A stretch of 50,237 nt of DNA from Arenimonas sp. Lineage in GTDB: Bacteria; Pseudomonadota; Gammaproteobacteria; Xanthomonadales; Xanthomonadaceae. Numbering within the stretch: position 1 is the first letter of the stretch; every line of letters begins with the position of its first letter. The stretch lies in assembly GCF_022842045.1 (NCBI RefSeq), contig NZ_JALHQI010000015.1:1-50237 (forward strand), in the 5' to 3' direction. The notes under the pieces are model-generated. The model ran no database searches. It had not been told where the DNA came from and was given only the letters and a program-made list of their open reading frames with translations. Shown piece after piece: positions 3,915 to 19,475 of the stretch. The translations under genes and the position numbers were made by a program.

Positions 3915-4378
3915 CAGGCGGCCTGCAGCGCGGCGAGTTCGCGCGTCGAGCGGGCCAGCGATTCCGCCCAGGAAAAACCGACGATGGCCTCGCCACTGGC
4001 GGCATCGCGGAACGCTTCCGCCTCGCCTTCCGGCAGCAGGTGGCGGTAGTCGACCGTCAGCTCCTCGCCGGCCTGCAGCGGCCGCGCCGCGAAAATGAAG
4101 CCCAGGTGCCACAGGCCGTTCGGCGCGAAGCTGTGGTTGACGTAGCACTCGTCCGGCCAGTCCAGCGACACCGTGCACTGGTCCTCGAACCAGCGCACCG
4201 CGGCGGCCATCGCAGCCGCCGCGTCCGGCCGCGCGCGGATGCTGTCCCAGCGCTGCGTACCGGGGATGTTGTCGGGCGCGACCACGATGCGCCCGGCGGC
4301 CACCGCCTCCTCGACGAACAAGCCGCGGCCGGCGCCGGGAATGGTGGAGGCAGCGATGCGGTAGCGCGGCAGGATCAT
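3914..4378 (-). CDS. SET domain-containing protein
   Basis: A 154-residue single-domain SET protein. The motifs GAGRGLFVEE (N-terminal SET box), YVNHSFAPN (the NHS knot motif near residue 79) and GEELTVDYR are present in the right order, so a SAM-dependent lysine methyltransferase fold is expected. A longer version starting two codons upstream at a TTG is possible, but ATG at 4378 is preferred. There is no Shine-Dalgarno sequence; instead a -10-like TAGACT ends six bases before the ATG, suggesting a leaderless or nearly leaderless transcript. The substrate is unknown; such small SET proteins are common in proteobacteria. Confidence 0.85.
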   Translation of the reverse strand: MILPRYRIAASTIPGAGRGLFVEEAVAAGRIVVAPDNIPGTQRWDSIRARPDAAAAMAAAVRWFEDQCTVSLDWPDECYVNHSFAPNGLWHLGFIFAARPLQAGEELTVDYRHLLPEGEAEAFRDAASGEAIVGFSWAESLARSTRELAALQAA

Positions 4379-4412
4379 GGCCAAAGTCTAGCGCAGGCCC
4401 TGCCCGCGGCAC

Positions 4413-4976
4413 TCAGCCCGATGGCACGTCGTCGCCGTCCCTGGGGCGCGCCGCGACATCGCCGGCCTCGCCCGGCGCCAGGTCGCCCGGCTGCAACCAG
4501 GCCGCGTTCCAGTACGCGTAGTCCGCGAGGCTCGGCACCAGCCCGGCGCGCACGGGGTTGGCCACGAGGTGCCGGCCCTCCGCCACCGGGTCATCGTTCG
4601 GGCCCAGCACGCGGTCGGTGAAGCCGCGGCCCCAGAGCCAGCCATTCACCCGATGCCGGTCTTCGACCGCGCGCGAGGTGATGGCCTTGAACCGGCCGAC
4701 GAGCGTGGACAGCGAGTCCCGCTCGCCCAGGGTCACCAGGCCGTGCCAGTGGTCCGGCATCAGCACCCAGGCCAGCAGGCAGGCGTCGCGCCAGGGCCAG
4801 GCCGCGGTGTGCACCCGGCAGACCGCCCGGGCGGCGTCGTGGTCCCGGAACAGCGGGCGCTTGTATAAGGTGTTGACCGTCAGCACGTAGGTTCTGCCCG
4901 GCACCGACCGATGCTCGAGCCGCCGGGCGCGGTAGCCGCTGGAAGGCCGGGCCGAAGCCGGCAGGATCGCGGACAT
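4413..4976 (-). CDS. RAYT, REP-associated tyrosine transposase (IS200-like Y1 family)
   Basis: A 187-residue Transposase_17/Y1_Tnp domain protein of the RAYT group, single-copy domesticated relatives of IS200/IS605 TnpA that act on REP palindromes. The HUH motif is H-W-H in LMPDHWHGLVTL, the N-terminal strand RTYVLTVNTLYKRPLF and the end motif NPVRAGLVPSLADYAYW with the candidate catalytic tyrosine are all present. The start at 4976 has a strong AGGAGG site seven bases upstream. There is no terminal inverted repeat or partner tnpB. Two GC-rich hairpins lie just upstream and REP-like palindromes occur elsewhere in the window, consistent with an active or recently active RAYT/REP pair. Confidence 0.9.
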   Translation of the reverse strand: MSAILPASARPSSGYRARRLEHRSVPGRTYVLTVNTLYKRPLFRDHDAARAVCRVHTAAWPWRDACLLAWVLMPDHWHGLVTLGERDSLSTLVGRFKAITSRAVEDRHRVNGWLWGRGFTDRVLGPNDDPVAEGRHLVANPVRAGLVPSLADYAYWNAAWLQPGDLAPGEAGDVAARPRDGDDVPSG

Positions 4977-5007
4977 CGAAGGCCTCCTTTCGACCCGGGA
5001 TAGTGGG

Positions 5008-5096
5008 CCGGCCCGGGGCGAGCGCCGGGCCGGAGCCCAGGACGCCCGTTCGTGGCCGGGGCAGGCCGTGCAGGGCCCGGCCGAGACCGGGCCCTG
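5008..5096. repeat. Two GC-rich palindromes upstream of the RAYT gene
   Basis: A 9-bp perfect inverted repeat (CCGGCCCGG at 5008-5016 with 5025-5033) and a 10-bp perfect inverted repeat (CAGGGCCCGG at 5071-5080 with 5087-5096) lie between the RAYT start and the comEA-like stop. RAYT genes are often flanked by their cognate REP hairpins, so these may be REP copies; they could also end the comEA-like transcript, though neither is followed by a T-run on the minus strand. Confidence 0.6.
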
Positions 5097-5109
5097 GACG
5101 GCAGCGGAC

Positions 5110-5451
5110 TCAGCCTTCGGCCGGCGGCGGCGACTTCGGGGCGGCGTCCGCGGCCGGCGGCGTCTTGGCACCCGCGGCACCGGCGCCGACCGTGATGCGA
5201 TCGCGGTTCGCCTCGACCGTGGACAGGCCGATGCCCTTCACCTCGGCCAGTTCGTCGGCGCTGCGGAAGGCGCCGTGCTGCTTGCGGTGCGCAACGATCG
5301 CCTCGGCTTTGCTGGGGCCGACGCCATCGAGCACGCGGTCGAGGGTGGCCGCATCGGCCGAGTTGATGTCCACCTTTTCGGCGGCAAGGGCGCCGCCGGC
5401 CAGCAAGGCCGACAGCAGCAGCGTGGAAAGCAGGGAAACGGACTTGCGCAT
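5110..5451 (-). CDS. ComEA-like exported helix-hairpin-helix DNA-binding protein
   Basis: A 113-residue secreted protein: Sec signal peptide at residues 1-23 (MRKS then a Leu/Ala-rich core ending in ALAAE), then a single ComEA-type helix-hairpin-helix domain beginning VDINSADAATLDRVLDGVG with the second hairpin KGIGLSTVEANRDRI, then an Ala/Pro-rich tail. ComEA-type proteins bind double-stranded DNA in the periplasm during transformation, holding it for uptake. GAGAGG seven bases before the ATG supports the start. No other competence genes are near, so a role in DNA uptake is inferred from the family only. Confidence 0.9.
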   Translation of the reverse strand: MRKSVSLLSTLLLSALLAGGALAAEKVDINSADAATLDRVLDGVGPSKAEAIVAHRKQHGAFRSADELAEVKGIGLSTVEANRDRITVGAGAAGAKTPPAADAAPKSPPPAEG

Positions 5452-7146: not shown

Positions 7147-7169
7147 GCCCCGTTCCCGCGGCACCCCTT

Positions 7170-7195
7170 GTGGGAGGGACTTCAGTCCCTCCCAC
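7170..7195. repeat. REP-like palindrome, possible terminator of the M20 gene
   Basis: A perfect 12-bp inverted repeat GTGGGAGGGACT / AGTCCCTCCCAC with a two-base centre. The arm GTGGGAGGGACTTCAGTCCC is identical to both arms of the larger element at 47879-47941, so it belongs to a dispersed family. It lies 24 bases after the M20 stop and may also end transcription. Confidence 0.85.
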
Positions 7196-7437
7196 GAGTT
7201 TTGCGGGGCCGGCACGGCAGATTCGCGAAAAACAGGACGTGGACCGCGGAATCTAGTCCCATCGTTCTATTCAGGATAATGCGCCGCGTGAAGACGCTCT
7301 TGACGGCTTCCTTAACGACACTTTAATTAATCCACCGGCCCGCTTATAGTCCGGAGGGTCTGCCGTTTTCCGGGGTGCGTGGCTTCACGTCGGCGGCGGG
7401 CTCCCATGCCAAATCAAGAACCACTTGGAGAGTAGAG

Positions 7438-10359
7438 ATGACCTTGAAGACCACCAAGCTCCGCGACGCGATCAAATTCGCGCTCGTCGTGGGTGCTGCG
7501 TCCGCCATGAGCACGGGCGCCGCGATCGCCCAGGACGAAGGCACTGAGGACGAAGCCGCCACCCTTGACGCGATCGTCGTCACCGGTACCCGCATCCAGA
7601 GCCAGACCGTCACCGCCTCGTCGCCCGTCGTCGAGATCAACCGCGAAGAGTTCCAGTTCTCCGGCGCCACCCGCGTTGACGACCTCGTCAACCAGTACCC
7701 GCAGCTGGCCACCTACTTCGACTCGTTCGCCAACAACGGTGCGACCGGTTACCCGACCGTCGACCTGCGTGGCCTCGGCGCCGCCCGCACCCTGACCCTG
7801 GTCAACGGCAACCGCCTGGCCCCGGGCGCGTTCGAAGTCCGTGACATCTCCATCATCCCGGCCGCCCTGGTCAGCCGCGTCGACATCCTGACCGGCGGCG
7901 CCTCGGCCGTTTACGGTTCCGACGCCATCGCCGGCGTGGTGAACTTCGTCCTCGACACCGAGTTCGAAGGCGTCAGCATCACCGCGGGCTACAACGCCTA
8001 CCAGCACAAGAACGACAACGAGTACATCCGCGGCCGCCTCGACGCCCGTGGCTTCGATTACCCGACCGGCAACTCCGGCTTCGACGGCGTCTCCAAGAAC
8101 GTCGACATCGCCATGGGCAGCAGCTTCGCCGACGGCGCTGGCCACGCGATGGCCTGGCTGACCTGGCGCAAGAACGACCCGCTGTTCCAGGGCGAGCGCG
8201 ACTATTCGTCCTGCGCGCTGAACGCGGCCGGCACCGGTTGCGGCGGCTCGGCCACCAACGCGACCGGCAACTTCTACGTCTTCCAGACCGACCCGGGCGA
8301 CCCGACCTTCTTCGACGGCAGCTCGGCCAGCCTGAATCCGGACGGCAGCTGGCAGGGTGCCTACGGCGCTCCGTACAACTACGCGCCGATCAACTACTAC
8401 CAGCGTCCTGACGAGCGCTACACCTTCGGCACCTCGATCAAGTACGAGATCAACGAGCACTTCAAGCCGTACATGGAGCTCATGTACGTCAACAAGCGTG
8501 ACTCGATCCAGATCGCCGAGTCCGGTGCGTTCTTCACCCTTGTCGACGGCCTGACCTGCGCCACCCCGTTCCTGGGTTCGCTCTGCGCCGACCTCGGCTT
8601 CAACCCGGCCCTGCCGGTCGGCGTCTACGTCGCCAAGCGCAACGTCGAAGGCGGCCCGCGCCTGCAGGAGATCGAGAACTCCTCGTATCGCATCCTCGCC
8701 GGCCTGGAAGGCGCCCTGAACGACAACTGGTCCTACAACGCCTCGTTCCTGTACGGCCAGACCACCAACAGCAACCAGGGCTTCAACGACTTCCTCAACG
8801 ATCGCATCGTTGACGGCCTGCTCGGCTGCCCGGCCGGTTCGTTCGACGGCTGCATCCCGTACAACGTCTGGGTCCCGGGTGGCGTCACCGCCGAGGCTGC
8901 CAATGCCCTGGCCGGTGTGAGCTTCAACCGCACCAGCACCACCATGAAGCAGGTCACCGCCTACGTCACCGGCGACACCGGCTTCGGCTTCGGTTCGGCC
9001 AACGGCGAGAACATCTCGCTCGTCGCCGGTGTCGAGTGGCGCGAGGAGACCTACGACTTCCGCGCTGACTCCAACTCCGAGGCCGGCAACTTCGCCGGTG
9101 CCGGCGGCCCGGCCCTGCCGGTCGCGGGCGGCACGAAGGTGTCCGAAGTGTTCATGGAGGCCATCGTCCCGCTGGTCACCGACGCTGGTTTCCTCAACAG
9201 CCTGAACCTCGACCTCGGCTACCGCATGTCGGATTACGACAACTCGGGCAACGAAGACACCTTCAAGCTCGGCTTCTCGGCCGACATGGGCATGGTTCGC
9301 GCCCGCGGCGGTTACAACCGTGCGATCCGCGCGCCGAACATCAACGAACTGTTCGCCCCGCAGGGCATCGGCCTGTGGGCCGGTACCGACCCGTGCGCCG
9401 GCGCCACCCCGGAGTTCAGCCTGGCCCAGTGCCAGAACACCGGCGTGACTGCGGCCCAGTACGGCTCGATCGCGGCCAACCCGGCGGCGCAGTACAACCA
9501 GTTCATCGGCGGCAACGCGAGCCAGTTCCCGGAAAAGGCTGACACCTACACCTTCGGTGTGATCGTCACCCCGATCGAGAACCTGCAGATCAGCGCCGAC
9601 TACTTCGACATCCAGCTCGAAGAGGCCCTGGACCCGATCGGCGCCAACAACATCCTGCGTGGTTGCGCCCTGACCGGCGATGCGTTCCTGTGCGACCAGG
9701 TCATCCGTAACCCGCTGACCGGCGACCTGTGGCGCGGTAGCGACATCAACACCTCGGGCTACATCAACAACGTTGACGGCAACTTCGGTTCGCAGAGCTT
9801 CCGGGGCATCGACCTGGGCGTGAACTACCGTTGGGACATGCTGGGCGGTCGCTTCTCGACCAGCATCCAGGGCACCTACCTGCTCGAGCAGGAAATCACC
9901 CCGCTGCCGAACAACAACAAGATCCTGAGCTACGACTGCGCGGGCATCATCAGCCCGGCCTGCCAGTCGCCCGAGTGGCGCCACATCGCCAACGTGCGGT
10001 TCTCGCGTGACTGGTACACCGTGAACCTGCGCTGGCGCTACTTCGGCGAGATGGACTACAAGGATCCGCAGACCGGCGCCGCGATCATTGCCGACCGCAT
10101 CACCTGCGCCGTCGGCACCCCGGTTCCGTCGGGCGTGCCTTGCAGCGGCAGCGGCGGTATCGACGCGTACAACTACCTCGACCTGTCCGCTTCGGCGTTC
10201 ATCGGCGAGTACGCGGAGTTCACCGTCGGCGTCAACAACATCGCCGACAAGGAGCCGCCGATGGTTGGCGGCGCGCTGGCCCCGCTGAACGGCAACTCGC
10301 CGGGTGGTTACGACCAGGCTGGTCGTTACTTCTTCACCAGCGTGACCTTCAAGTTCTAA
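7438..10359 (+). CDS. Large TonB-dependent outer-membrane receptor
   Basis: A 973-residue TonB-dependent receptor. Signal peptide at residues 1-31 ending AIAQ; TonB box/plug start LDAIVVTGTRI; plug motifs LVNQYPQ, VDLRGLGAARTLTLVNGNRL and TGGASAVYGSDAIAGVVNF; 22-strand barrel ending FFTSVTFKF with terminal Phe. Seven closely spaced Cys pairs lie in probable surface loops (for example CALNAAGTGC, CATPFLGSLC). Many Gly, Arg and Val codons end in T, unlike the C/G-ending neighbours, which suggests selection for high expression. The start at 7438 has GGAG upstream. A -35-like TTGACG at 7300 and the -10-like TATAGT at 7345 are weak promoter candidates. The ligand is unknown; an intrinsic terminator follows, and TPR-sulfotransferase and hydroxylase genes lie next door. 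Confidence 0.93.
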   Translation: MTLKTTKLRDAIKFALVVGAASAMSTGAAIAQDEGTEDEAATLDAIVVTGTRIQSQTVTASSPVVEINREEFQFSGATRVDDLVNQYPQLATYFDSFANNGATGYPTVDLRGLGAARTLTLVNGNRLAPGAFEVRDISIIPAALVSRVDILTGGASAVYGSDAIAGVVNFVLDTEFEGVSITAGYNAYQHKNDNEYIRGRLDARGFDYPTGNSGFDGVSKNVDIAMGSSFADGAGHAMAWLTWRKNDPLFQGERDYSSCALNAAGTGCGGSATNATGNFYVFQTDPGDPTFFDGSSASLNPDGSWQGAYGAPYNYAPINYYQRPDERYTFGTSIKYEINEHFKPYMELMYVNKRDSIQIAESGAFFTLVDGLTCATPFLGSLCADLGFNPALPVGVYVAKRNVEGGPRLQEIENSSYRILAGLEGALNDNWSYNASFLYGQTTNSNQGFNDFLNDRIVDGLLGCPAGSFDGCIPYNVWVPGGVTAEAANALAGVSFNRTSTTMKQVTAYVTGDTGFGFGSANGENISLVAGVEWREETYDFRADSNSEAGNFAGAGGPALPVAGGTKVSEVFMEAIVPLVTDAGFLNSLNLDLGYRMSDYDNSGNEDTFKLGFSADMGMVRARGGYNRAIRAPNINELFAPQGIGLWAGTDPCAGATPEFSLAQCQNTGVTAAQYGSIAANPAAQYNQFIGGNASQFPEKADTYTFGVIVTPIENLQISADYFDIQLEEALDPIGANNILRGCALTGDAFLCDQVIRNPLTGDLWRGSDINTSGYINNVDGNFGSQSFRGIDLGVNYRWDMLGGRFSTSIQGTYLLEQEITPLPNNNKILSYDCAGIISPACQSPEWRHIANVRFSRDWYTVNLRWRYFGEMDYKDPQTGAAIIADRITCAVGTPVPSGVPCSGSGGIDAYNYLDLSASAFIGEYAEFTVGVNNIADKEPPMVGGALAPLNGNSPGGYDQAGRYFFTSVTFKF

Positions 10360-10380
10360 GCAACACTTAGCGTCACCTTC

Positions 10381-10412
10381 AAGCGGCGGGCTTCGGCCCG
10401 CCGCTTTTTTTT
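10381..10412 (+). terminator. Rho-independent terminator of the TonB-dependent receptor gene
   Basis: An 11-bp perfect stem AAGCGGCGGGC / GCCCGCCGCTT closed by a TTCG tetraloop and followed by a run of eight T, 22 bases after the receptor stop. Confidence 0.95.
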
Positions 10413-10440
10413 GCCCGTTCGTCAGGCGCCGTCGTCACCG

Positions 10441-10504
10441 GGAAAGCGAGGGTCGCTTTCTCCGACATCAAGGCTTCACGGGGGAGAAAGCGACCTTCGC
10501 TTCC
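10441..10504. repeat. Imperfect inverted repeat downstream of the receptor
   Basis: Left arm 10441-10463 (GGAAAGCGAGGGTCGCTTTCTCC) and right arm 10483-10504 are near-perfect reverse complements around a 19-base centre. A GC-rich direct repeat with CCGCGGTGGCC follows at 10503-10560. It lies between the terminator and the convergent sulfotransferase gene and could be a REP-type element or help end the minus-strand operon. Confidence 0.7.
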
Positions 10505-10585
10505 GCGGTGGCCCCGGCGCCGTAGAGCCTGACGTGCGCTCCCGCGGTGGCCGCGGCGCCCGCGGCCACCTAATGCGAATGTGGC

Positions 10586-12175
10586 TCAGAGGCCGTGGTG
10601 GGCGAGACGGTCCTTCAGCACCCGCAGGCCGTCGGCGTAACGGCGCCACTTGCCGACCGAACCGGTGTGGACCGGCTGCCGGACCTGGGAGGCGCTGGCC
10701 GAGGTGGACGGGCGGTCGCTGGCCTCCGGGGCGAGCACGTCGTCGTTCCAGGCCAGCCCGCAGAACTCGAGCAGGCGGCGGGCCTGGCCCTCCGGATCGG
10801 TCACCAGTTCCTCATAGCGCACGTCCAGCACCTGGCCGGGCATCACCTCGTGCCAGTGCTGCATCAGGCGGCGATAGGCCGCGTAGTAGTCGGCCAGTTC
10901 CACCTGGTCGTAGGAGAACGGATAGGCCTGGCTGAACATGGTCTTGTAGACCGCGTAGCCGGTATCCATCGGGTCGCGCACCAGGTGGATGATGCGCGCC
11001 TTGGGCAGCGCCTTCCGGATCATGCCGCAGTACATGTAGTTGATCGGCATCTTGTCGATCACGAAGCGGTGGCCGGGCGCCGCCTGGCGCAGTCCGGCCA
11101 TGTAGTCGCGGCCCAGCGCGGCGAAGTCGATCCGGGTCGAGGCCTCGGCCAGCGGCATGCCCGGCGGCCTGGCCGCCATCCGCTGTGCCGCGGCGGCCAG
11201 CAGCTGGCCGAAGTCGAGCAGCTCGCCGGCCTCGCCCACCTCGCCCTGGCGGCCAAGCATCCGCTCTACCAGGGTGGTGCCGGTGCGCGGCATGCCGACG
11301 ATGAAGATCGCGCCCTCCTCGTCATGGCCTGGCGCGTCGTTGGCCATCACCTCGCGCGTCCAGGCCGTGCGGACGCTCTCGAGCGCCGCAAGCTCGCCCG
11401 CCGGGTCGTGCCGCAGGGTCGAATGCTTGAGCGCCGCGGCCCGGTTGAGCTCCTCGATCGCGCGCGCATCCTGGCCCAGGTCCTCCAGCTCCTTGGCCAG
11501 GGCGAAGCGACAGGCCGCCTCGGAGGCCGGCTCGGCGAAACCGTCCGCCAGGCGAGACTCCAGGTCGGCGACGTGGTTCCCGGCCTCGGTGGCCGTGCGC
11601 AGCGTGGAGCGCAGATAGAGCGCGGCGCCCGCCTTGGGCGCCATCGCCAAGAGGGACTCGAGCTGCGCGGCGGCGGCTTCGGTTTCGCCCAGGAAGAACA
11701 GCGCGGCCGCCAGGTCGTACAGCAGGCCCGGATGGGTGAAGCCCGTGCCCAGCGCCTTCTCGAGCAGCTCGCGCGCCTGCGCCGGCTGGCCGGCATTAGC
11801 CGGGATCTTGGACAGCGCCCACAGCGCCCGCCCGTCCTTGTAGGCGATGTTGGCCGCCTCGCCCACGAGCGTGCAGGCGTCCTGGCGGCGGCGCAGCATC
11901 AGCAGCACGTGCGCGAGCTTGAGCATCAGCGGCGGCTGGCCCGGGGCGGCGGCATTGGCCGCGGTGACCAGGGGCAGCGCGCCCGCCGCGTCGCCGGCGG
12001 CCAGGCGGATCTCGCCGGCCAGGAACAGCACCTGGGCATTGCCCGGATGCTCGGCCAACAGCGCCGTGGCCAGGCGCATCGCCTCGCCGAACTTGCCCTG
12101 CCGCAGCAGGTCCATGCCCTCGCCAATCTTCTGCTCGAGCGGCGACAGCGCCGGGCCCGTGTTCTGCTCAACCAT
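10586..12175 (-). CDS. TPR-containing sulfotransferase (first copy)
   Basis: A 529-residue two-domain protein. Residues 1-280 are tetratricopeptide-like helix pairs (for example LAAGDAAGALPLVTAA, ALFFLGETEAAAAQLE). From about residue 290 comes a PAPS-dependent sulfotransferase domain with the 5'-phosphosulfate loop VGMPRTGTTLVERML and the 3'-phosphate motif IIHLVRDPMDTGYAVYK, and the late RYEELVTDPE. No signal peptide or membrane helix is present, so it is cytosolic. The ATG at 12175 is chosen because AAGGA sits eight bases upstream; another ATG three codons earlier touches that site. It is last of a four-gene minus-strand operon. Relatives include tyrosyl-protein sulfotransferases; the acceptor here is unknown. 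Confidence 0.9.
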   Translation of the reverse strand: MVEQNTGPALSPLEQKIGEGMDLLRQGKFGEAMRLATALLAEHPGNAQVLFLAGEIRLAAGDAAGALPLVTAANAAAPGQPPLMLKLAHVLLMLRRRQDACTLVGEAANIAYKDGRALWALSKIPANAGQPAQARELLEKALGTGFTHPGLLYDLAAALFFLGETEAAAAQLESLLAMAPKAGAALYLRSTLRTATEAGNHVADLESRLADGFAEPASEAACRFALAKELEDLGQDARAIEELNRAAALKHSTLRHDPAGELAALESVRTAWTREVMANDAPGHDEEGAIFIVGMPRTGTTLVERMLGRQGEVGEAGELLDFGQLLAAAAQRMAARPPGMPLAEASTRIDFAALGRDYMAGLRQAAPGHRFVIDKMPINYMYCGMIRKALPKARIIHLVRDPMDTGYAVYKTMFSQAYPFSYDQVELADYYAAYRRLMQHWHEVMPGQVLDVRYEELVTDPEGQARRLLEFCGLAWNDDVLAPEASDRPSTSASASQVRQPVHTGSVGKWRRYADGLRVLKDRLAHHGL

Positions 12176-12227
12176 GTGGATCATCCTTTCTTTGGAATGG
12201 CGTGGCGCCGTGCGGCGCCGGCGTGGT

Positions 12228-13493
12228 TCAGGGCTGCCCCTGGTACTCGCGGGTGGCGGCGGACAGCGCCCGCACCATGTCCCGCTCGGCCGCCGACAAC
12301 AGCGGGTTCCAGACGTCGAAGATCAGGACGACGCGCAGTTCGTCGCCGTCGTTGCGGGCCTCGTGCTCGATGCTGTCGTCGAAGATCAGCACCTCGCCCA
12401 CGGTCCACGTGCGGTGTTCGAAACCGACGCGGTAGCGGCAGCCCGGCGGCACCACCAGCGGCAGGTGCACCACCAGGCGGGCATTGGTCTCGCCGTGGTG
12501 CGGCGGGATGTGGGTGTGCGGCGCCAGCGCCGAGAACATCGCGTTCGGGCACAGGCCGCCGATGTCGGCCATCTGCACTTCGCGCAGGGCCGCGGTGGTG
12601 CGGGGGCAGCGCTGCTGGTGCTCGTCGACCGGCGTGCCGTCGCGCCAGAGGAAGTAGCTGCTCCAGCGCGTGGAATGGTTGAGCTCGCGCCACTGGTTCA
12701 CCGGCGCGCCCGGGGCGCACTCCACGTAGGGCCGGAAATCATCCTGCCGCTCCGCCAGCAGGCCCTGCAGCTCGGCCGTGATCTCGGCGGTGCGCGACTC
12801 CAGCGCCTCCACCCAGGCGAAGTCGCGCCGCTCGCTGAACGGGATCGCCGGCAGCCGGGGCACGTACAAGCGGTTGCACTCGGAGCGATAGGGCCTGGCC
12901 TGGCCGCTGATGATCGCCCCGGCCTCGCGGAAGCGCTGCGCCTCCACCGGATCCAGCCGCGCCAGCGCGGCGCCGGTGCGTTCGGCCAGGAAGTCGGACA
13001 GGCGGCGGGCGTTCGCCTCGACGGCCTGCTGCGCATGCTCCAGCTGCGGCCTAAGCGCGGGCGGCCAGGCTGTCTCCGGCGGCGCGATCTTGAGCGCATT
13101 GCGGAACTGTTCGGCCGCCAGCTTGGGGCGACCCCGGCGCTCGTACAGGTTGCCCCTGGCCAGCAGGCCCGGCAGGAAGTAAGCGTCAGCCACCAGCGAG
13201 GCATCGATCGCGCGCTGTTCGCCCGCCTCGTCGCCGCGCTCGCGAAGCACGTGGGCGAGGCTGAGCAGGATCATCGGCTCGCGCGGCGCCGCCTTGTGCG
13301 CGGCCTGCAGCAGGCCCTCGGCCTCGGCCAGGTCGCCGCGGCGGAACGCGTGCATGCCCAGGCTGTGCAGCGCCGCCGCGTTGCCCGGGTCGAGCGTGCG
13401 CACCTGCTGCCAGAGCTGCTCGGCCTGCTCCCAGCGGCCCTGCGCGGCGGCCTGTCCGGCCGACTGCACCAGCGACTTCACCCTGTCATTCAT
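12228..13493 (-). CDS. TPR-containing aspartyl/asparaginyl beta-hydroxylase
   Basis: A 421-residue protein with about 150 N-terminal residues of TPR-like helices and a C-terminal PF05118-type 2-oxoglutarate/Fe(II) hydroxylase domain. Key residues are H in HTHIPPHHGETNARLVVHLPL and the second iron His in IFDDSIEHEARN, followed by RVVLIFDVWNP. Family members hydroxylate Asp/Asn side chains or fatty acyl chains (LpxO); the TPR front end favours a peptide or protein substrate. The ATG at 13493 has AGGAG six bases upstream. It sits between the other TPR enzymes in the same direction, with gaps of 52 and 82 bases. Confidence 0.9.
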   Translation of the reverse strand: MNDRVKSLVQSAGQAAAQGRWEQAEQLWQQVRTLDPGNAAALHSLGMHAFRRGDLAEAEGLLQAAHKAAPREPMILLSLAHVLRERGDEAGEQRAIDASLVADAYFLPGLLARGNLYERRGRPKLAAEQFRNALKIAPPETAWPPALRPQLEHAQQAVEANARRLSDFLAERTGAALARLDPVEAQRFREAGAIISGQARPYRSECNRLYVPRLPAIPFSERRDFAWVEALESRTAEITAELQGLLAERQDDFRPYVECAPGAPVNQWRELNHSTRWSSYFLWRDGTPVDEHQQRCPRTTAALREVQMADIGGLCPNAMFSALAPHTHIPPHHGETNARLVVHLPLVVPPGCRYRVGFEHRTWTVGEVLIFDDSIEHEARNDGDELRVVLIFDVWNPLLSAAERDMVRALSAATREYQGQP

Positions 13494-13575
13494 TCCCGGC
13501 TCCTGGACACCCCGGGCCCACGGCCACGGGGCCCCGAAGGATACCGCGAATGCCGGCGACGGCTCCTGGTGGCGC

Positions 13576-15447
13576 TCAGCGCGCGAGTGCGCGCGGCGCC
13601 ACGTCGAAGGCGATGGTGACGCGCGGCTGCTCGTCCTGGAATGGCACGGTGCCGTGCCACAGGTAGGACGGGAACAGGGCCAGGCGCCCGCGGATGGGCC
13701 GGATCACGCGCCGCGGCGCCAGGTCCAGGCCCAGCTCGACCGGCGGCTGGCCAAACTGGATGCAGCCGGCGTCGCCATCGGCCTGGGTCGGCTGGCGCAC
13801 CGAGGGCGGCAGCGACACGTAGTAGGCCGAGCTGATCCAGCCTTCGGGGTGTATGTGGTTGACGTGGCTGCCCGCCGACCAAAGCCGCACCGACCACGAG
13901 CCCGAGAAACGCAGCGACGCGGCGCGGCGCGACAGGAAGGGATGCTTGTCGTCCGCGGGCAGCCGCGCCAGCCAGCGCTCGACCGCACGGGCGATGGTGG
14001 CCTGGGCCTCGGCCAGCACGGGATCGGGACGACCGAACAGCCGCCCGGGCGTCTGGGAACCACCGCGCAGCGTCTGCAGGATGGGCTCGCGGCGAGCCTG
14101 GTGCAGCGGTTCCAGCGTGGCCAGCAACGCCGCGAGGTAGTCGTCCTGGCCCGCGTATCCCGGCGGCGGCTCCACTTCCACCAGCTCCACCAGGTGGTCG
14201 TAGGCGCACAGCCAGTGCTCGCGCGGGTCGTCCAGCAGGCGCCAGGCCGTGGCCAGGTAGGCCCAGGCCTCCTGGTTGGCCGGGGCAAGCACCGTGGCCG
14301 CCTCCGCCATCTTCGCGGCCTGGTCCCACTGCCCCGCCCGCAGCAGGTGGCGGGCGTAGACGTTGAGGAACACCGGGTCGCGATCGCCCAGCGCCTTGAA
14401 GGCCTGCGCGTAAAGCCGGCCTGCCTCCCCGGTGCGACCGATCGCTTCGAGCGCGTTGGCCTCCAGCGACACATAGACCGGGTGGTCCTCGTCGGCGCGC
14501 AGGCGACGAACCTGCTCGAGCGCGGCTTCGGGCTGCTTCGCGGCCATCAGGAACTGCGAGTAGGCCACCCGCAGCGGGCCGTTGCCCGGCTGTGCCTCAA
14601 GCCCGGCGCGGAAATGCGCCGCCGGGTCGACGCCCGGCGCGTGGCTCGCGCCGTGTTCCCAAAGCAGGTGCCCCAGCGTGCCGTAGCCCGGCACGAACTC
14701 AGGGTGCCGTCGATTCAGCTGCAGCGCCTGCGCCAGGGCCTGCGCCGGTTCGCCGGCGTCGAGCAGCGCACCCGCACGCGCGTCGAGCAGCTCCGGGCCG
14801 CTGGCACCGGCCGCCTCGGCGCGGGCGTAGCACGCCAGCGCCTGCTCGGCGCGACCGCACAGGCGAAGCATGCCGCCCAAGTTGAGCCAGGCCTGGCCAT
14901 TGCCGGGCTCGATCTCGGCCACGCGCCGGAACGCCACTTCCGCCGCTTCGAACTCGCCCAGCGCGCGCTGCGCGCTGCCCAGCACGTGCCAACCCAGGCT
15001 GGACCCGGGATGCAGCGCCAACCCGCGTTCGGCCGCCGGCACCGCGGGGCCGGGCTTGCCGCTGGCGACCATGGCTGCCGCCAGCTCGATCCAGGCCTTG
15101 GCGAAGTTGGGCGCGGCCGCCGCGGCGGCGCCGAAGGCGCGGATGGCGTCCTCGATCCGCCCGGCGCGGCGCAGCGTGGCGCCCTGGTTCACCAGGATCA
15201 TCGGATGCCGGGGCGCCAGGGCCAGCGCGGCCTCGAAGGACCGTTCGGCGTCGGCGAACTGGTTCGCGGCGCCCAGGCACATGGCCAGGGCATGGTGCGC
15301 GTCCGGCGAGCGCGGCGCGCCCTGCACCAGCGCGCGGGCGAGCCCGGTCGCCTCGGGCACGCGGCCGGCGGACAGTTGGGCGAACACCTGCTCGAGCTGG
15401 CGCGCCTGGTCGGCCGCCAGGGCCTGGGCGTTTTCGGCGGTGGCCAT
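13576..15447 (-). CDS. TPR-containing putative 2OG-Fe(II) oxygenase (TIGR02466-like)
   Basis: A 623-residue protein. The first 400 residues are a long run of TPR-like repeats (for example FGAAAAAAPNFAKAWIELAA, AFRRVAEIEPGNGQAWLNLG). The last 190 residues form a 2-oxoglutarate oxygenase domain: metal-binding HVNHIHPEGWISSAYYVSLP, then FPSYLWHGTVPF with the distal His and PRVTIAFD with the 2OG-binding Arg. This matches the uncharacterised TIGR02466 type, often fused to TPRs. The start lies five bases after the stop of the upstream exported-protein gene, so translation is probably coupled. The substrate is unknown. Confidence 0.88.
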   Translation of the reverse strand: MATAENAQALAADQARQLEQVFAQLSAGRVPEATGLARALVQGAPRSPDAHHALAMCLGAANQFADAERSFEAALALAPRHPMILVNQGATLRRAGRIEDAIRAFGAAAAAAPNFAKAWIELAAAMVASGKPGPAVPAAERGLALHPGSSLGWHVLGSAQRALGEFEAAEVAFRRVAEIEPGNGQAWLNLGGMLRLCGRAEQALACYARAEAAGASGPELLDARAGALLDAGEPAQALAQALQLNRRHPEFVPGYGTLGHLLWEHGASHAPGVDPAAHFRAGLEAQPGNGPLRVAYSQFLMAAKQPEAALEQVRRLRADEDHPVYVSLEANALEAIGRTGEAGRLYAQAFKALGDRDPVFLNVYARHLLRAGQWDQAAKMAEAATVLAPANQEAWAYLATAWRLLDDPREHWLCAYDHLVELVEVEPPPGYAGQDDYLAALLATLEPLHQARREPILQTLRGGSQTPGRLFGRPDPVLAEAQATIARAVERWLARLPADDKHPFLSRRAASLRFSGSWSVRLWSAGSHVNHIHPEGWISSAYYVSLPPSVRQPTQADGDAGCIQFGQPPVELGLDLAPRRVIRPIRGRLALFPSYLWHGTVPFQDEQPRVTIAFDVAPRALAR

Positions 15448-15452
15448 GGAAG

Positions 15453-15935
15453 TCAGTTCAGGCGGCGGGCGCGCAGCGTGGCGCGGCCCGGGGCGACCAG
15501 CACGAACGAACCCAGCGCGGCGGCGCGAATGGCGATGCGGTCGCCCGGCTTGAGCGGGCCCTTCGAAGTGGCCTCGGTGAGCAGCCAGACCTGGCCGTTG
15601 TCGAGCGTGACCACGCGCTGGCCCGAGGCGCGGTAGGTGACATCGGTGATCGAGGCCTCGATGCGGCTCGGGAGCTCGTCGCCGGCGGCCTCGGCCGAGC
15701 GCTCGCGCAGCTGCATGGCGTCGAGGCCGAACTCCTGCAGCGCCTTCTCGCGGCGCGCGGCGGCGGCGGCGGCGATGGCGGCCTCGTCGCGCACGGGCGG
15801 GAAGGCCGCGTCATAGCAGGCCAGGCGATCCTCGGGGTCGAGCACCTTGGCACAGTCGTGGCCTTGCGCAAGCGCCACGGGAGAGGCGACGACCAGGGCC
15901 AGCGCGGCCAGCCAACGCACACGGGAGTAGGACAC
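15453..15935 (-). CDS. Exported small protein with VasI-like CYD motif, unknown function
   Basis: A 160-residue protein I do not recognise as a named family. It has a Sec signal peptide (residues 1-23, ending ALAQG), then a Cys pair in CAKVLDPEDRLACYDAAF, resembling the N-terminal motif of VasI-like and other small periplasmic proteins, then a charged helix, and a C-terminal beta-rich region (VVTLDNGQVWLLTEATSKG, PGDRIAIRAAALGSFVLV). The start is GTG at 15935 with AAGGAG six bases upstream. It is first in the operon with the 2OG oxygenase, beta-hydroxylase and sulfotransferase, so it could be a partner or substrate, but nothing in the sequence proves that. Confidence 0.75.
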   Translation of the reverse strand: MSYSRVRWLAALALVVASPVALAQGHDCAKVLDPEDRLACYDAAFPPVRDEAAIAAAAAARREKALQEFGLDAMQLRERSAEAAGDELPSRIEASITDVTYRASGQRVVTLDNGQVWLLTEATSKGPLKPGDRIAIRAAALGSFVLVAPGRATLRARRLN

Positions 15936-16011
15936 GGGGAGCTCCTTGGGATTGCGCCGGACCCGCGCGCCAGCCGGCTAGGCCTGCGCCGGAAAGGCCG
16001 AAAATGGACCG

Positions 16012-16020
16012 TGATAATAT
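16012..16020 (+). promoter_or_regulatory. Extended -10 promoter element for the methyltransferase gene
   Basis: TGATAATAT in GC-rich surroundings gives an extended -10 (TG-N-TAATAT). Transcription would start near 16027, downstream of the in-frame ATG at 16004, which supports the TTG start at 16049. No good -35 is visible. Confidence 0.55.
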
Positions 16021-16048
16021 TCCCCGCTCCAACGGGAGTAAGCAAGCT

Positions 16049-16999
16049 TTGAGCCTGGAACAGTGGGAAAACTACTATCGCAGTGGCGCCATCGCGACCT
16101 GCCCCACCGCCGTTGACGGCGGCTACGACCTCGAGGTCCGCCAGGCCTGGGTTGCCTTCTTCTCCACCCTGCCCGACGGCGCCCGCCTGCTCGACGTGGG
16201 CACCGGCAACGGCGTCATCCCGCTGATCGCCGCCGAGACCGCCGCGTCGCTCGGCCGCCGCTGGGAGATCCACGGCAGCGACCTCGCCCGCATCGACCCG
16301 GTCGCGCAGGTGCGCGACGGCGCCAAGCGCTTCGCCGGCATCACCTTCCACCCCGGCGTCGGCACCGAGAAGCTGCCGTTCGTGGCCGGCCACTTCGACG
16401 CCGTTTCGGGCCACTACGCGCTCGAGTACACCCAAACCGCCGCCGCGCTGGCCGAACTCCACCGCGTGCTCAAGCCCGGCGGCGACGCCCAGTTCGTGGT
16501 CCACCACGCCGATTCGATCCTGCTGCGCACGGCGCATGCGTCGCTGCGCGACTCCGACCTGGTGTTCAAGGAAACCAAGCTCTACCGAAAGCTGCACAAG
16601 CTGGTGACGATGGAGCAGGCCACGCCCGGCGTGACCGAGCGCGCCACCCATGAACTGCGCGCCGCCATCCAGGCGCTGAAGCAGGCGCTGCCGGCCGCGC
16701 GCCAGGCGGGCGGCGGCCGCATCCTCACCGTGGCACTCGACGCCACCCAGAAGCTGCTGGAGGCGCGCAAGACGCTGCGCCCCGAGCTCGCGGGCAACGA
16801 AGTCGACCGCGCCGAGGCGGACCTTCGCGCGTCCACCCGCCGCCTGCACGACCTGATCGAGCACGCGCGCGATGCCGCCGCCATGGAGGCGCTGCAGGCC
16901 GAGGCCAACGCCGCGGGCTTCACCGCGATCGAGCGGCTGCCGCAGTACCACGGCGGCGACAACCTCGTGGGTTGGCTGTTGATGATGCGCCGGCCGTGA
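16049..16999 (+). CDS. Class I SAM-dependent methyltransferase
   Basis: A 316-residue methyltransferase with motif I LLDVGTGNGVIPLIA near residue 48, the acidic end of strand 2 in IHGSDLARIDP, and post-motif III LAELHRVLKPGGDAQFV. A helical extension of about 100 residues lies between the Rossmann core and a final GWLLMM strand. The proposed start is TTG at 16049, with GGGAG ten bases upstream; an in-frame ATG at 16004 overlaps the likely -10 element and is less likely. It reads divergently from the exported-protein/oxygenase operon and is followed by the second TPR-sulfotransferase. Substrate unknown. Confidence 0.85.
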   Translation: MSLEQWENYYRSGAIATCPTAVDGGYDLEVRQAWVAFFSTLPDGARLLDVGTGNGVIPLIAAETAASLGRRWEIHGSDLARIDPVAQVRDGAKRFAGITFHPGVGTEKLPFVAGHFDAVSGHYALEYTQTAAALAELHRVLKPGGDAQFVVHHADSILLRTAHASLRDSDLVFKETKLYRKLHKLVTMEQATPGVTERATHELRAAIQALKQALPAARQAGGGRILTVALDATQKLLEARKTLRPELAGNEVDRAEADLRASTRRLHDLIEHARDAAAMEALQAEANAAGFTAIERLPQYHGGDNLVGWLLMMRRP

Positions 17000-17018
17000 T
17001 GCCGGCGGGCCTGGGATC

Positions 17019-18527
17019 GTGAGCACGGCCGCCGAGGGCCTGCTGCGGCAGGCCGCCGCCCTGCACCGGCAGGGCCGGCGCGCCGAGGGCCTGGCCCAGT
17101 TCCAGCGCGTGCTGGCCGAGCACCCGCACCTGTCCGAGGGCTGGTACGAGCTGGGCTACCTGCTCAAGGCCGACGGCCGCCACGAGGACGCACTGGCCGC
17201 CTTCGCCGAGGCCTTGGCCCGCGGCGTCGACCGCGCCGAGGAGGTACACCTCAACCGCGCCGTCATTTATTCCGACATGCTGCGCCGGGACGACGACGCC
17301 GAGCGCGAGCTGCTGGCCGCGATCGCCTTGGCGCCGGGCTACGTGCCGGCCCTGCTCAACCTGGGCAACCTGCACGAGGAGCGCGGCCGGCGCGAGGACG
17401 CCATGGCCTGCTACCGCAAGGTGCTGGCCGGCGAAGGCAACGACCCGCGCCACGCCGACCTGCGCCACGAGGCCCTGGCCAGGCTGGCCATCCTCTCGCC
17501 GCCGGAGCGGCTCGACGATCCGATGCTGGCCCGGCTCGACCAGGCCGCCACCGAGGCGGCGCGCGGCAACCCACACGTGCGCGCGAACCTGCTGTTCTCG
17601 CTGGGCCGCTCCTACGAGCGGCTGGGCGACTTCGACCGTGCGTTCGAGGGCTTCTCGCGCGCGAACCGCTCGCTGTTGCGCCAGTCCGGCCGAAGCTACG
17701 ACCGCACGCAGGCCGAGCAGCAGGTGGATTCGCTGATGCGCGCCTTCACCGCCGAGCACCAGGGCGGCCGCACCGACCCCGGCGACGCCGGCGCCGAACC
17801 GCTGTTCGTCTGCGGCATGTTCCGCTCCGGCTCCACCCTGATCGAGCAGGTGCTGGGCGCCCACCCGCAGGTGACCGCCGGCGGCGAACTCGATTACTTG
17901 CTGCGGCTGGCGCTGGGGCCGCTGGCGCCCTTCCCCGCCTCGATGGCGCGCGTGGACACCGCCCGCGACGCGGAGCTGGCCGCCGGCTATCGCGCGCATC
18001 TGGCCAAGCTGTTCCCGGAGGGCATGCACGGCCGCTACATCACCGACAAGCGACCGGACAACTTCAGCCTGATTGGCCTGGTCAAGCGGATGTTCCCGCG
18101 CGCCAAGGTCATCCACACCGTGCGACACCCGCTAGACACCGGGCTGTCGGTGTTCACCCAGCACCTGAACCTGCGCATCGCCGGCTACTCGGCTGACCTA
18201 GGCGACATCGGCCATCATTTCGGCCAGGACCGCCGGCTGATGGCGCACTGGCGGGCCCTCTATCCGGACGACATCCTGGACTTCGACTACGACGTCTTCG
18301 TGCGCGACCCGCGGCCGGCGCTGGAGCGCCTGCTGCAGTTCCTCGGCCTGCCCTGGGACGACGCCTGCCTGCAGTTCCACACCCGCGAGAGCACGGTCAA
18401 GACGGCCAGCTACTGGCAGGTGCGGCAGCCGCTGAACGCCAGGTCCTCCGGACGCTGGCGCCAGTACGGCGCCCACCTCGACCCGCTGCGCGCCGCGCTG
18501 CTCAACGCCGGCGTCGCCATCGACTGA
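17019..18527 (+). CDS. TPR-containing sulfotransferase (second copy)
   Basis: A 502-residue protein with TPR-like helices over residues 1-230 (for example LAQFQRVLAEHPHLSEGWYE, LLNLGNLHEERGRREDAM) and a sulfotransferase domain from about residue 262: 5'-loop CGMFRSGSTLIEQVLGAHP, 3'-phosphate motif KVIHTVRHPLDTGLSVF, late DYDVFVRDPRPALERLLQFL. The architecture is the same as the copy at 10586-12175, but the sequence is quite different, so this is an old paralogue rather than a recent duplication. The start is GTG, 19 bases after the methyltransferase stop; only a weak ribosome site is visible. Probably co-transcribed with the methyltransferase. Confidence 0.9.
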   Translation: MSTAAEGLLRQAAALHRQGRRAEGLAQFQRVLAEHPHLSEGWYELGYLLKADGRHEDALAAFAEALARGVDRAEEVHLNRAVIYSDMLRRDDDAERELLAAIALAPGYVPALLNLGNLHEERGRREDAMACYRKVLAGEGNDPRHADLRHEALARLAILSPPERLDDPMLARLDQAATEAARGNPHVRANLLFSLGRSYERLGDFDRAFEGFSRANRSLLRQSGRSYDRTQAEQQVDSLMRAFTAEHQGGRTDPGDAGAEPLFVCGMFRSGSTLIEQVLGAHPQVTAGGELDYLLRLALGPLAPFPASMARVDTARDAELAAGYRAHLAKLFPEGMHGRYITDKRPDNFSLIGLVKRMFPRAKVIHTVRHPLDTGLSVFTQHLNLRIAGYSADLGDIGHHFGQDRRLMAHWRALYPDDILDFDYDVFVRDPRPALERLLQFLGLPWDDACLQFHTRESTVKTASYWQVRQPLNARSSGRWRQYGAHLDPLRAALLNAGVAID

Positions 18528-18542
18528 GGGCGGGGCGGCGAC

Positions 18543-19475
18543 TCACTTGTCGCTGGCGCTGGCGCTGCCGGTGCTGATGCGGATGTCGCCGGAAAAGGTT
18601 TCCAGCCGCAGGTCGGCCGAGCCGTCGCCCAGCTGGCCCTTCAGCGAGCTGCCGGGACCGTATTCCTCGGTGACCACCTTGCCGACCGGGCTGCGGATGC
18701 TGCCGCTGAAGGACTCGGCCTGCACGCGGCCGGAGGCGTTCGCCGGCAGGCGCAGCGTGAGGTTGCCGCTCAGGGTCTCGGCGGTGACGCGCGCACCCGG
18801 CGCGAGCGCCAGCTGCAGATCGGCATCGCCGGAGACGCTGCTGACGTCGAGCCGGTCGACCGTGCCGGCGCGCAGGCCGAGGTCGCCGGACACCGACTCG
18901 AGCGCCACCCGGCCAGCGATCGCGCCGCGCAGGCGCAGGTCGCCGCTGACGGTCTCGGCGCTGGTGCTGCGGCTGTCGATCTCGACGTCCACGTTGCCGC
19001 TCACCGACTCGAAGCTCGCTTCACCGGCGCGGGCGCCGCGCACCGTGAGGTCGCCGCTGACCGATTCCAGGCCCAGACGCGCGCCGCCGGTGCCGGCGAC
19101 ATCGATGTCGGCGCTGACCCCGGACGCCTTCAGTCCCGCGGCGGCGGGGATGGTGAGCTCGAGCGTGCTCGCCTCGCCTTGCGACGCGCCCCAGTTGAAC
19201 CAGCCGCTGCGCTGGGGGTAGCGAACGAGGATGCTCAGGCGTTCGGCGTTGCCTTCGATCTCCAGTTTCTCGACGCCTTCGCCGAGGCTGCCGGTGATGC
19301 GCACTTCCGGGCGGTCCCACGTGCGCACCGTGATGCTGCCCTTGAGATTGTCGACGCTGACGTGGCCGGTGGCCGACAGCGGGCGGGTTTCGTTGATGGG
19401 CGTGGCCGCGAGCGCGCTGGCGCCGGCGAACAGGCCGGCGAGCGCCGCAGTGCGCAGCAGGGCGTGGGTGGACAT
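18543..19475 (-). CDS. DUF4097-type exported beta-repeat protein
   Basis: A 310-residue protein with a Sec signal peptide (residues 1-22, ending ALAAT) and a body made of about eight degenerate 20-residue beta-strand repeats centred on a V/F-S-G-D/N motif: LESVSGDL, FESVSGNV, AETVSGDL, LESVSGDL, VSSVSGDA, AETLSGNL, AESFSGSI, LETFSGDI. This is the DUF4097 / putative auto-transporter adhesin head pattern, a right-handed beta-helix probably in the periplasm or cell envelope. ATG at 19475 is chosen because GGAG lies six bases upstream and the signal peptide begins there; an ATG eight codons earlier overlaps the anti-sigma stop. It is the last gene of the ECF sigma operon and is a likely target of it. 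Confidence 0.88.
   Translation of the reverse strand: MSTHALLRTAALAGLFAGASALAATPINETRPLSATGHVSVDNLKGSITVRTWDRPEVRITGSLGEGVEKLEIEGNAERLSILVRYPQRSGWFNWGASQGEASTLELTIPAAAGLKASGVSADIDVAGTGGARLGLESVSGDLTVRGARAGEASFESVSGNVDVEIDSRSTSAETVSGDLRLRGAIAGRVALESVSGDLGLRAGTVDRLDVSSVSGDADLQLALAPGARVTAETLSGNLTLRLPANASGRVQAESFSGSIRSPVGKVVTEEYGPGSSLKGQLGDGSADLRLETFSGDIRISTGSASASDK

Follow-up and report, generated by a model that had tools for sequence, protein, structure and literature searches.

Two tyrosines of a TonB-dependent receptor are each coupled with one type of TPR-fused sulfotransferase at a gene block of Arenimonas sp.

The window analyzed here is a stretch of 50,237 nt from contig NZ_JALHQI010000015.1 of Arenimonas sp. 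(assembly GCF_022842045.1), and the region under study, positions 7438-18527, carries the gene of a TonB-dependent receptor (TBDT) next to a block of genes encoding modifying enzymes, several of them fused to tetratricopeptide repeats (TPRs). The receptor gene (7438-10359, plus strand; 973 amino acids (aa) from the ATG at 7438) matches the Pfam plug (2.3e-18) and barrel (3.6e-26) domains and contains the codons of two residues that are central to this analysis: Tyr280 (8275-8277, plus strand, context GNF[Y]VFQT), which is coupled with the sulfotransferase ST1 and is its candidate acceptor, and Tyr397 (8626-8628, plus strand, context PVGV[Y]VAKRNVEGG), coupled with ST2-type enzymes and the candidate acceptor of ST2. 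The minus strand encodes ST1 (10586-12184, TPR plus Sulfotransfer_3 domain, 532 aa, PF13469 at 7.5e-49), a TPR-fused AspH-type Fe(II)/2-oxoglutarate (2OG) hydroxylase (12228-13493, 421 aa, PF05118 at 2.2e-43), a TPR-fused Fe(II)/2OG oxygenase (13576-15447, 623 aa, PF13759 at 5.3e-22) and a small exported protein of 160 aa (15453-15935) with a hydrophobic N-terminus, a C..RL.C[YF]D motif and an LDNGQVW tail. The plus strand encodes an S-adenosylmethionine-dependent methyltransferase (16004-16999, 331 aa, PF13649 at 3.3e-10) located upstream of ST2 (17019-18527, TPR plus Sulfotransfer_3 domain, 502 aa, PF13469 at 7.2e-40).

All seven genes named in the original prediction were found as open frames at these coordinates. 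Pfam matched domains in all of them except the small exported protein and detected TPRs in four of the six non-receptor genes. The 'TIGR02466-type' label given to the oxygenase is carried by PF13759 (78.5 bits, cut-off 27), since the TIGR02466 score was below the curated cut-off (40.6 versus 62.5 bits). The 'divergent promoter' was correct in that the two arms diverge and are separated by 68 bases; a scan for sigma-70 consensus sites covering 7147-18700 yielded no promoter-like site, so the promoter itself is deduced from gene order. Terminator-like sites were not enriched in the region (4 versus 4.9 expected); the longest stem belongs to a hairpin with a T tract 3′ of the receptor gene (10381-10406, plus strand). 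Judged by hydropathy only, rather than by a signal-peptide predictor, the receptor and the small protein have a strongly hydrophobic N-terminal stretch and appear to be exported, and the four TPR enzymes lack one. The Arenimonas genome (3.08 Mb, 94.9% complete) contains four PF13469 matches, one PF05118 match and 14 plug-domain matches; thus, two of four sulfotransferases and the sole AspH gene adjoin one of 14 receptors.

Both sulfotransferases resemble tyrosylprotein sulfotransferases (TPSTs) in sequence. For the ST1 sulfotransferase domain, all solved matches at E ≤ 0.001 were protein-tyrosine sulfotransferases (best 4e-14), and the best sulfotransferase match of ST2 in the PDB was the same protein-tyrosine sulfotransferase chain (2.7e-12); ST2 also matched a polyketide-synthase chain more weakly (8.3e-7). 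The first motif for binding of 3′-phosphoadenosine 5′-phosphosulfate (PAPS) reads PRTGTT in ST1 and FRSGST in ST2. In an alignment with TPST chains, the Arg of this motif, a Lys, and the Glu matching the catalytic Glu of TPST2 are conserved. Among 86 related domains, Arg300 (85/86), Glu321 (86/86), Lys378 (83/86) and Ser497 (83/86) are conserved, positions which we take to be the PAPS-motif Arg, the catalytic Glu, and the functional Lys and Ser. Passages of PMC6637879 name as essential a catalytic residue (His or Glu) together with a Ser and a residue of positive charge.

The receptor has a plug, a barrel, a TonB-box-like stretch and a hydrophobic N-terminus, and its AlphaFold model (mean predicted local distance difference test score (pLDDT) 87, predicted template modelling score 0.86) is nearest to solved TBDT folds such as PfeA and FepA. 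Twelve conserved cysteines form six close pairs (259/268, 374/383, 464/472, 653/665, 743/752 and 834/842), each found in ≥95% of 25 orthologues. Tyr280 and Tyr397 adjoin Cys-paired stretches (247-324 with C259/C268, and 373-393 with C374/C383, respectively; block pLDDT near the two residues 84 and 88). These stretches vary in length among relatives, some of which carry long insertions before residue 397. Such Cys-paired, length-variable stretches beside both tyrosines argue for surface loops, and on this sequence pattern Tyr280 and Tyr397 probably lie in or beside loops held by the Cys pairs. The receptor was found at ≥48% identity in 14 of 119 genomes of the family, and in 11 of these 14 one or more of the block enzymes are encoded beside it. 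It stands alone in two genomes of one genus (G211 and G236), and in a third (G239) it is split between two contigs, the available pieces of which carry no enzyme gene of the block. As a side observation, the orthologues G239 C43/C58 and G908 C1 are in pieces, with a TAG inside one piece each.

In the discovery set of 25 orthologues, Tyr397 was present at 10 of 11 loci with a sulfotransferase gene nearby and at 1 of 14 without. The exceptions were L098, which has a non-Tyr residue and an ST1-like enzyme by another receptor, and L035, which has the Tyr without a sulfotransferase. An alignment of more distant subfamily members gave the same trend with the exceptions L134 and L154. The Tyr397 prediction and the sulfotransferase status of each locus were fixed before the residues of a test set were read. 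This set consisted of 60 further receptor fragments of 900 bases, from which close copies had been thinned by hand and locus G850, of undetermined status, left out; sulfotransferase genes were located by searching 58 genomes with the ST1 domain (E ≤ 1e-12), in place of the domain score named with the prediction, and 'near' was defined as ≤8.5 kb. Tyr397 was found in 21 of 21 receptors with a sulfotransferase within this distance compared to 5 of 35 without (Fisher p = 5e-11), and four loci of undetermined status had Tyr twice and Phe twice. Two loci, both with Tyr, had been classed contrary to the flank rule (G097 C33, flank <3 kb on one side, and G049, flank >3 kb on both sides); swapping their classes left the second fraction at 5/35. 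The association persisted when similar receptors were merged at 90% (17/17 versus 4/34), 80% (14/14 versus 4/29), 70% (13/13 versus 4/24) and 60% identity (9/9 versus 2/20). Tyr397 ranked first among 711 column-residue tests in the fragment (p = 5e-11), followed by Thr511 (2e-7).

An alternative is that the targets of the sulfotransferases are other exported proteins or glycans, Tyr280 and Tyr397 being markers of receptor lineages in which the cluster happens to be present. The coupling is correlative; receptor gene and cluster could travel together, and receptor and enzyme distances correlate (r = 0.71-0.78). In addition, the 25 orthologues are split by a few further columns as well. Shared ancestry was taken into account with a tree of 89 subfamily sequences, in which fragments without the EGG-type motif were dropped and the scan covers approximately residues 251-561. 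With any sulfotransferase as the state, 15 independent contrasts were obtained, of which 9-11 were concordant for Tyr397 and none opposed (score 10.3, next positive score 5.1, of 776). With the ST2 type as the state and L144 dropped, Tyr397 was present in 33 of 33 versus 6 of 55, again with 9-11 of 12 contrasts concordant and none opposed (score 10.3, next positive score 4.2, of 763). These contrasts speak against a mere lineage marker, as does the fact that no other column of the segment came near Tyr397 in the tree-aware scan. Moreover, receptors that lack the enzyme have a variety of other residues at position 397 (T, L, A, N, S, R, G, F and Q), as expected under repeated loss. We therefore regard the lineage explanation as quite improbable.

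The link of Tyr397 is to ST2-type enzymes, as became apparent when the enzymes were sorted by their similarity to ST1 or ST2. All loci with full sequence and an ST2-type enzyme have Tyr397 (13 including the window, with G126 as the 14th). Where the sulfotransferases are ST1-like or of another kind, with no ST2 type among them, the residue is T in L098, I in L154, F in L134, Q in L113 and L114, and N in L123, the receptors of L113, L114 and L123 being without the EGG motif. Each sulfotransferase-positive fragment locus has one enzyme with ≤41% identity to the ST1 domain. The orthologue G126, which is outside the set of 25, carries Tyr280 as well as Tyr397, and its contig encodes sulfotransferases of both types. 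Association of Tyr397 with the other genes of the block was absent or weak (AspH p = 1, oxygenase 0.66, exported protein 0.60, methyltransferase 0.056).

Several observations weigh against Tyr397 as the target of ST2. The residue is kept in the 5 of 35 test receptors without a nearby sulfotransferase mentioned above, namely G700, G715, two of G454, and G097; the genomes of G700, G715 and G454 contain no match to the ST1 domain, and in G097 a sulfotransferase is encoded beside its other receptor. Likewise, L035 and L144 have Tyr397 and no ST2-type enzyme was seen, L144 having an ST1-like enzyme on its 8.2-kb contig. In the 60 fragments, 'ST2-type' denotes any sulfotransferase within 8.5 kb, irrespective of its clade. 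Both the test and the tree scan are limited to approximately residues 251-561, with the fragments ending near 547, and among the 25 full-length orthologues Asp109 and Asp207 each split the ST2 loci 9/10 versus 0/15, nearly as Tyr397 does (10/10 versus 1/15). Asp109 is also found in the distant G226, G220 and G244 receptors, without a sulfotransferase on the available piece. The strongest negative score of the first tree scan, -6.3 for Val421, is the next by absolute value (of 776), and the surroundings of Tyr397 are not strongly acidic.

Tyr280 is coupled with ST1 in the same manner, a link that we hold less firmly. Among the 25 orthologues, it was present at all 8 loci with an ST1-type enzyme nearby and at none of the 17 without (0/7 close relatives and 0/10 of the Luteimonas-type group), and it was the only Tyr column separating the ST1 loci. 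In the 60 fragments, with ST1 defined as ≥54% identity within 8.5 kb, Tyr280 was found in 9 of 10 receptors with ST1 versus 3 of 48 without, the latter including the four loci of undetermined status; two ambiguous loci had Tyr and Ala. The prediction was set down before these residues were listed; the test was still not fully blind, as the aggregate column count had already been seen, and five of the ten ST1-positive fragments are near-identical Xanthomonas-type copies. Merging at 90% identity gave 6/7 versus 3/42 (p = 4e-5) and merging at 60% gave 2/2 versus 1/23 (p = 0.01). Over all sets, with G056, G107, L098 and L144 dropped as ambiguous, the counts were 18/19 versus 4/66. The corresponding pattern, with Tyr280 present and Tyr397 absent, is also seen in the distant L154, where the ST1 type is the sole sulfotransferase type. 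On the opposite side, Thr367, Ala399, Ala679 and Arg766 split the ST1 loci among the orthologues as cleanly as Tyr280, merging at 70% identity left just 3/4 versus 2/29 (p = 0.007), and the tree provides only 3 independent contrasts, 2-3 of them concordant, with Tyr280 barely leading the scan (2.53, next 2.48). Furthermore, G905 has ST1 and Leu280, and G751, G1030, G991 and L141 have the Tyr without ST1. The top column in both tree scans, for ST2 and for ST1, is a Tyr.

Searches for AspH-type proteins covered 151 genomes of the order as well as named genomes, and the best 80 of 592 loci of the latter were analyzed. Genes at these 80 loci were labelled by phmmer with the window proteins, and as many loci are cut by contig ends, the counts are rough lower bounds. 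A TBDT was present at 54 of these loci, mostly within 6 kb of AspH, the oxygenase type at 24, a sulfotransferase at 21, the exported-protein type at 18 and the methyltransferase at 2. TBDT midpoints fell into 24 of 146, 15 of 133 and 17 of 124 flank bins within 6 kb of AspH, compared to 4 of 119 bins at 6-8 kb and 0 of 13 at 8-10 kb. Lysobacter sp. M2-1 (L088, the same contig as L214) possesses the whole arrangement, Xanthomonas hortorum (L102) has AspH, ST2, the exported protein, ST1 and a TBDT together, and in many alphaproteobacteria a TBDT gene is followed by AspH on the same strand. Record titles place the AspH-type partner in Xanthomonadales, Caulobacterales, Hyphomonadaceae, Burkholderiales and other groups.

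A second comparison started from PF13469, which was found above cut-off in 102 of 119 genomes of the family. Twenty such genes, approximately every seventh row among the matches listed in the family genomes, were examined on pieces of up to 16 kb. A TBDT was detected on 11 of these 20 pieces and on 2 of 19 controls taken from other parts of these genomes, one control piece itself carrying a sulfotransferase; at a TBDT score of at least 100 bits, the counts were 8/20 versus 1/19. The TBDT search model was built from the kin of this receptor, so that in either set it may overlook receptors of other types. Clustering of these genes exceeds chance, as it recurs across orders and above two controls. 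The original prediction had considered genes scattered independently in related genomes as evidence against a common system; what we found is in between, with genes that recur together and members that vary (26 of the 80 AspH-type loci have no TBDT on the available piece, and two receptor orthologues stand alone).

Three further arrangements were noted in this survey. At L237, L240, L241, L243, L246, L247, L249 and L253, a second recurrent module consists of a TBDT, a PF13759-like oxygenase of ~220-270 aa, which does not have TPR length, and a sulfotransferase of TPR-fusion length. Sulfotransferases at L255, L259, L262 and L264 lie near shorter receptor types (~785-835 aa), three of which score just 41-50 bits against the model of this receptor. 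The partnership of sulfotransferases and receptors may therefore be wider than this TBDT subfamily. In several alphaproteobacteria (L079, L081, L084, L086, L103, L104, L109 and others), an SppA-like peptidase gene, identified by eye, adjoins the TBDT-AspH pair, which probably reflects local synteny.

Taken with the coupling, we suggest that the block is a receptor-modification cassette. TBDTs are made in the cytosol and exported unfolded, so TPR enzymes located there can reach the receptor. The cytosolic TPR enzymes would recognise the newly made, unfolded TBDT before export, ST2 would sulfate Tyr397 and ST1 Tyr280, and the receptor would arrive in the outer membrane carrying fixed negative marks, which would change the binding of its loops to a ligand, phage, bacteriocin or host surface. 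That the two tyrosines are the acceptors would be the simplest reason for the joint loss of a Tyr and a tyrosine-sulfating enzyme. All in all, we consider sulfation of Tyr397 by ST2 and of Tyr280 by ST1 in the cytosol before export to be the probable explanation, with appreciable room for doubt. An effect of the marks on ligand affinity, or avoidance of phages or bacteriocins that use the receptors, are guesses. Concerning the earlier proposal of protein decoration, the sulfotransferase part with the receptor as target is supported by the Tyr397-ST2 and Tyr280-ST1 coupling and the TPST likeness, in contrast to the exported protein as a substrate. The proposed cytosolic action before export is in agreement with the N-termini described above, hydrophobic in the receptor and the exported protein and not strongly so in the TPR enzymes.

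The enzymes might instead modify a cargo of the receptor, a cell-made peptide or small molecule that is re-imported, in which case both tyrosines would be binding-site residues following the sulfated cargo. TBDTs import cargo, and peptidase or peptide-transport genes, identified by eye, lie near several alphaproteobacterial receptors. Furthermore, AspH-type, sulfotransferase and lasso-peptide families, among them lasso B2, are numbered adjacently in a table of a Pontixanthobacter genome comparison (PMC10040529), and as far as this table goes, the adjacent numbers imply that both enzyme families may tailor peptides elsewhere. A comparison of the intergenic stretches with ten related loci, on the other hand, revealed no conserved small open reading frame; the hits obtained for a small precursor peptide were either weak or corresponded to the N-terminus of the receptor itself or to short stretches by the terminator. 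A lasso-peptide cluster was rejected as well, as the lasso maturation protein B2 (PF13471) had no match in the Arenimonas genome, and in the four genomes with B2 hits that were compared (G061, G200, G231 and G253) these were located on other contigs or >1 Mb from the AspH gene. In addition, a sulfate-binding residue would more often be Arg or Lys, and the top column of both scans is Tyr, the acceptor of this enzyme family. Modification of the cargo thus appears unlikely to us.

The hydroxylase and the oxygenase may modify the same receptor, a weaker extension of the sulfation model for which gene clustering is the basis. The ten best fold matches of the AspH-type model (pLDDT 93.8) were oxygenase-TPR structures of human AspH, which among solved PF05118 proteins comes closest by both profile and fold. 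The template modelling score was ~0.41 for the whole protein and 0.83 when normalized to the solved oxygenase domain alone, the two domains being turned differently. His332, Gly334 and His377 of the HxG...H metal site are invariant in 16 and in 36 sequences, and the HxG is presumably shared with human AspH. It counts against the extension that neither the orthologue columns nor the tree scan of residues 251-561 revealed an acceptor residue for AspH or the oxygenase. For AspH, five contrasts were available in this segment with Tyr321 as the top score (3.5), and apparent hits at residues 544-556 were an artefact of fragments ending near codon 547. In the TonB box, residue 44 (codon 7567-7569) is Asp in 21 of 21 AspH-bearing orthologues and Glu in 4 of 4 without. 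It was dismissed as the AspH acceptor, as Glu or other residues are frequent in receptors by other AspH-type genes, Asp is found in the distant L226-L229 without AspH on the available piece, and the four Glu cases represent approximately three lineages. Among the 25 orthologues, no receptor column was coupled with the oxygenase and a few were coupled with the methyltransferase.

The exported 160-residue protein, which had no match in Pfam or NCBIfam, was the second candidate substrate of the original prediction. It is encoded between the enzymes and, as counted above, its type recurs near AspH (18 of the best 80 of 592 named loci). It was, however, not seen at most loci with a TBDT and an AspH type, its homologues lie several kb from AspH in alphaproteobacterial pieces, and the Tyr of its CYD motif is replaced by Phe in several homologues near other clusters. 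A role of this protein as the common substrate is hence very improbable, and the receptor remains the preferred target.

Bacterial tyrosine sulfation (RaxX) and TPR-fused AspH (animals) are known. Animal TPST1 and TPST2 are the nearest solved relatives of the ST1 and ST2 domains, with the catalytic positions kept. TPSTs are membrane enzymes of the Golgi without TPRs, unlike ST1 and ST2, which are TPR fusions without a hydrophobic N-terminus. Human AspH, which acts in the endoplasmic reticulum on EGF-like domains, has a TPR domain followed by a PF05118 oxygenase, as does the Arenimonas hydroxylase; the latter differs in having no hydrophobic N-terminus and in the orientation of its domains in the model. 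The CanE-type lasso-peptide hydroxylase (PF05118), which we take to be a bacterial AspH-type enzyme acting on a peptide, is set apart by the lack of a B2 match in the Arenimonas genome. For RaxST of Xanthomonas (raxX-raxSTAB), passages of PMC6637879 and PMC9372746 describe cytoplasmic tyrosine sulfation before export and a TPST-like catalytic domain; a similar mode of action is proposed here for ST1 and ST2. The rax genes specify a single small peptide together with a type I exporter, whereas the Arenimonas block encodes TPR enzymes whose coupled partner is an outer-membrane receptor. The block has neither a conserved small precursor frame nor a peptidase-ABC exporter gene; no ABC exporter is found among the six assigned of its seven genes, and raxB was not searched for in the rest of the genome.

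In the open-licence PMC literature, we found no report of a sulfated or hydroxylated TBDT, of TPR-sulfotransferases as a class, or of a coupling of one enzyme with one tyrosine. The reference list of PMC6213323 includes a 2016 proteomics study of tyrosine sulfation in X. oryzae. In the literature found, bacterial tyrosine sulfation is known from the RaxX peptide, and a receptor substrate, if true, would extend this modification to integral outer-membrane proteins. It would also provide a role for the common and little-studied PF13469 enzyme family, with named residues for direct mass spectrometry, and bear on how receptors change the recognition of ligands, phages and bacteriocins. The coupled tyrosines suggest that bacteria chemically mark their surface receptors. 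Many proteobacteria might sulfate tyrosines in TBDT surface loops with one TPR-sulfotransferase each, AspH-type enzymes and 2OG oxygenases adding further marks, in a decoration code readable from genomes by joint gain and loss; this generalization is tentative, a real possibility falling slightly short of an even chance. Joint gain and loss of an acceptor residue and an enzyme could in addition reveal the targets of other orphan modifying enzymes.

Some minor features were observed outside the block. Upstream in the window, the minus strand encodes a small SET-domain protein (3914-4384, PF00856) and an IS200-like Y1 transposase domain (4413-5180, PF01797), perhaps of the REP-associated type. 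A frame at ~40000-40440 on the minus strand encodes a Lys/Ala-rich histone-H1-like protein (MATKKAAKKPAKKAAKK...). On contig C23 of the Arenimonas genome (L182), another TPR-sulfotransferase of 692 aa is encoded beside the gene of an RNB-domain ribonuclease, with no receptor found on that piece.

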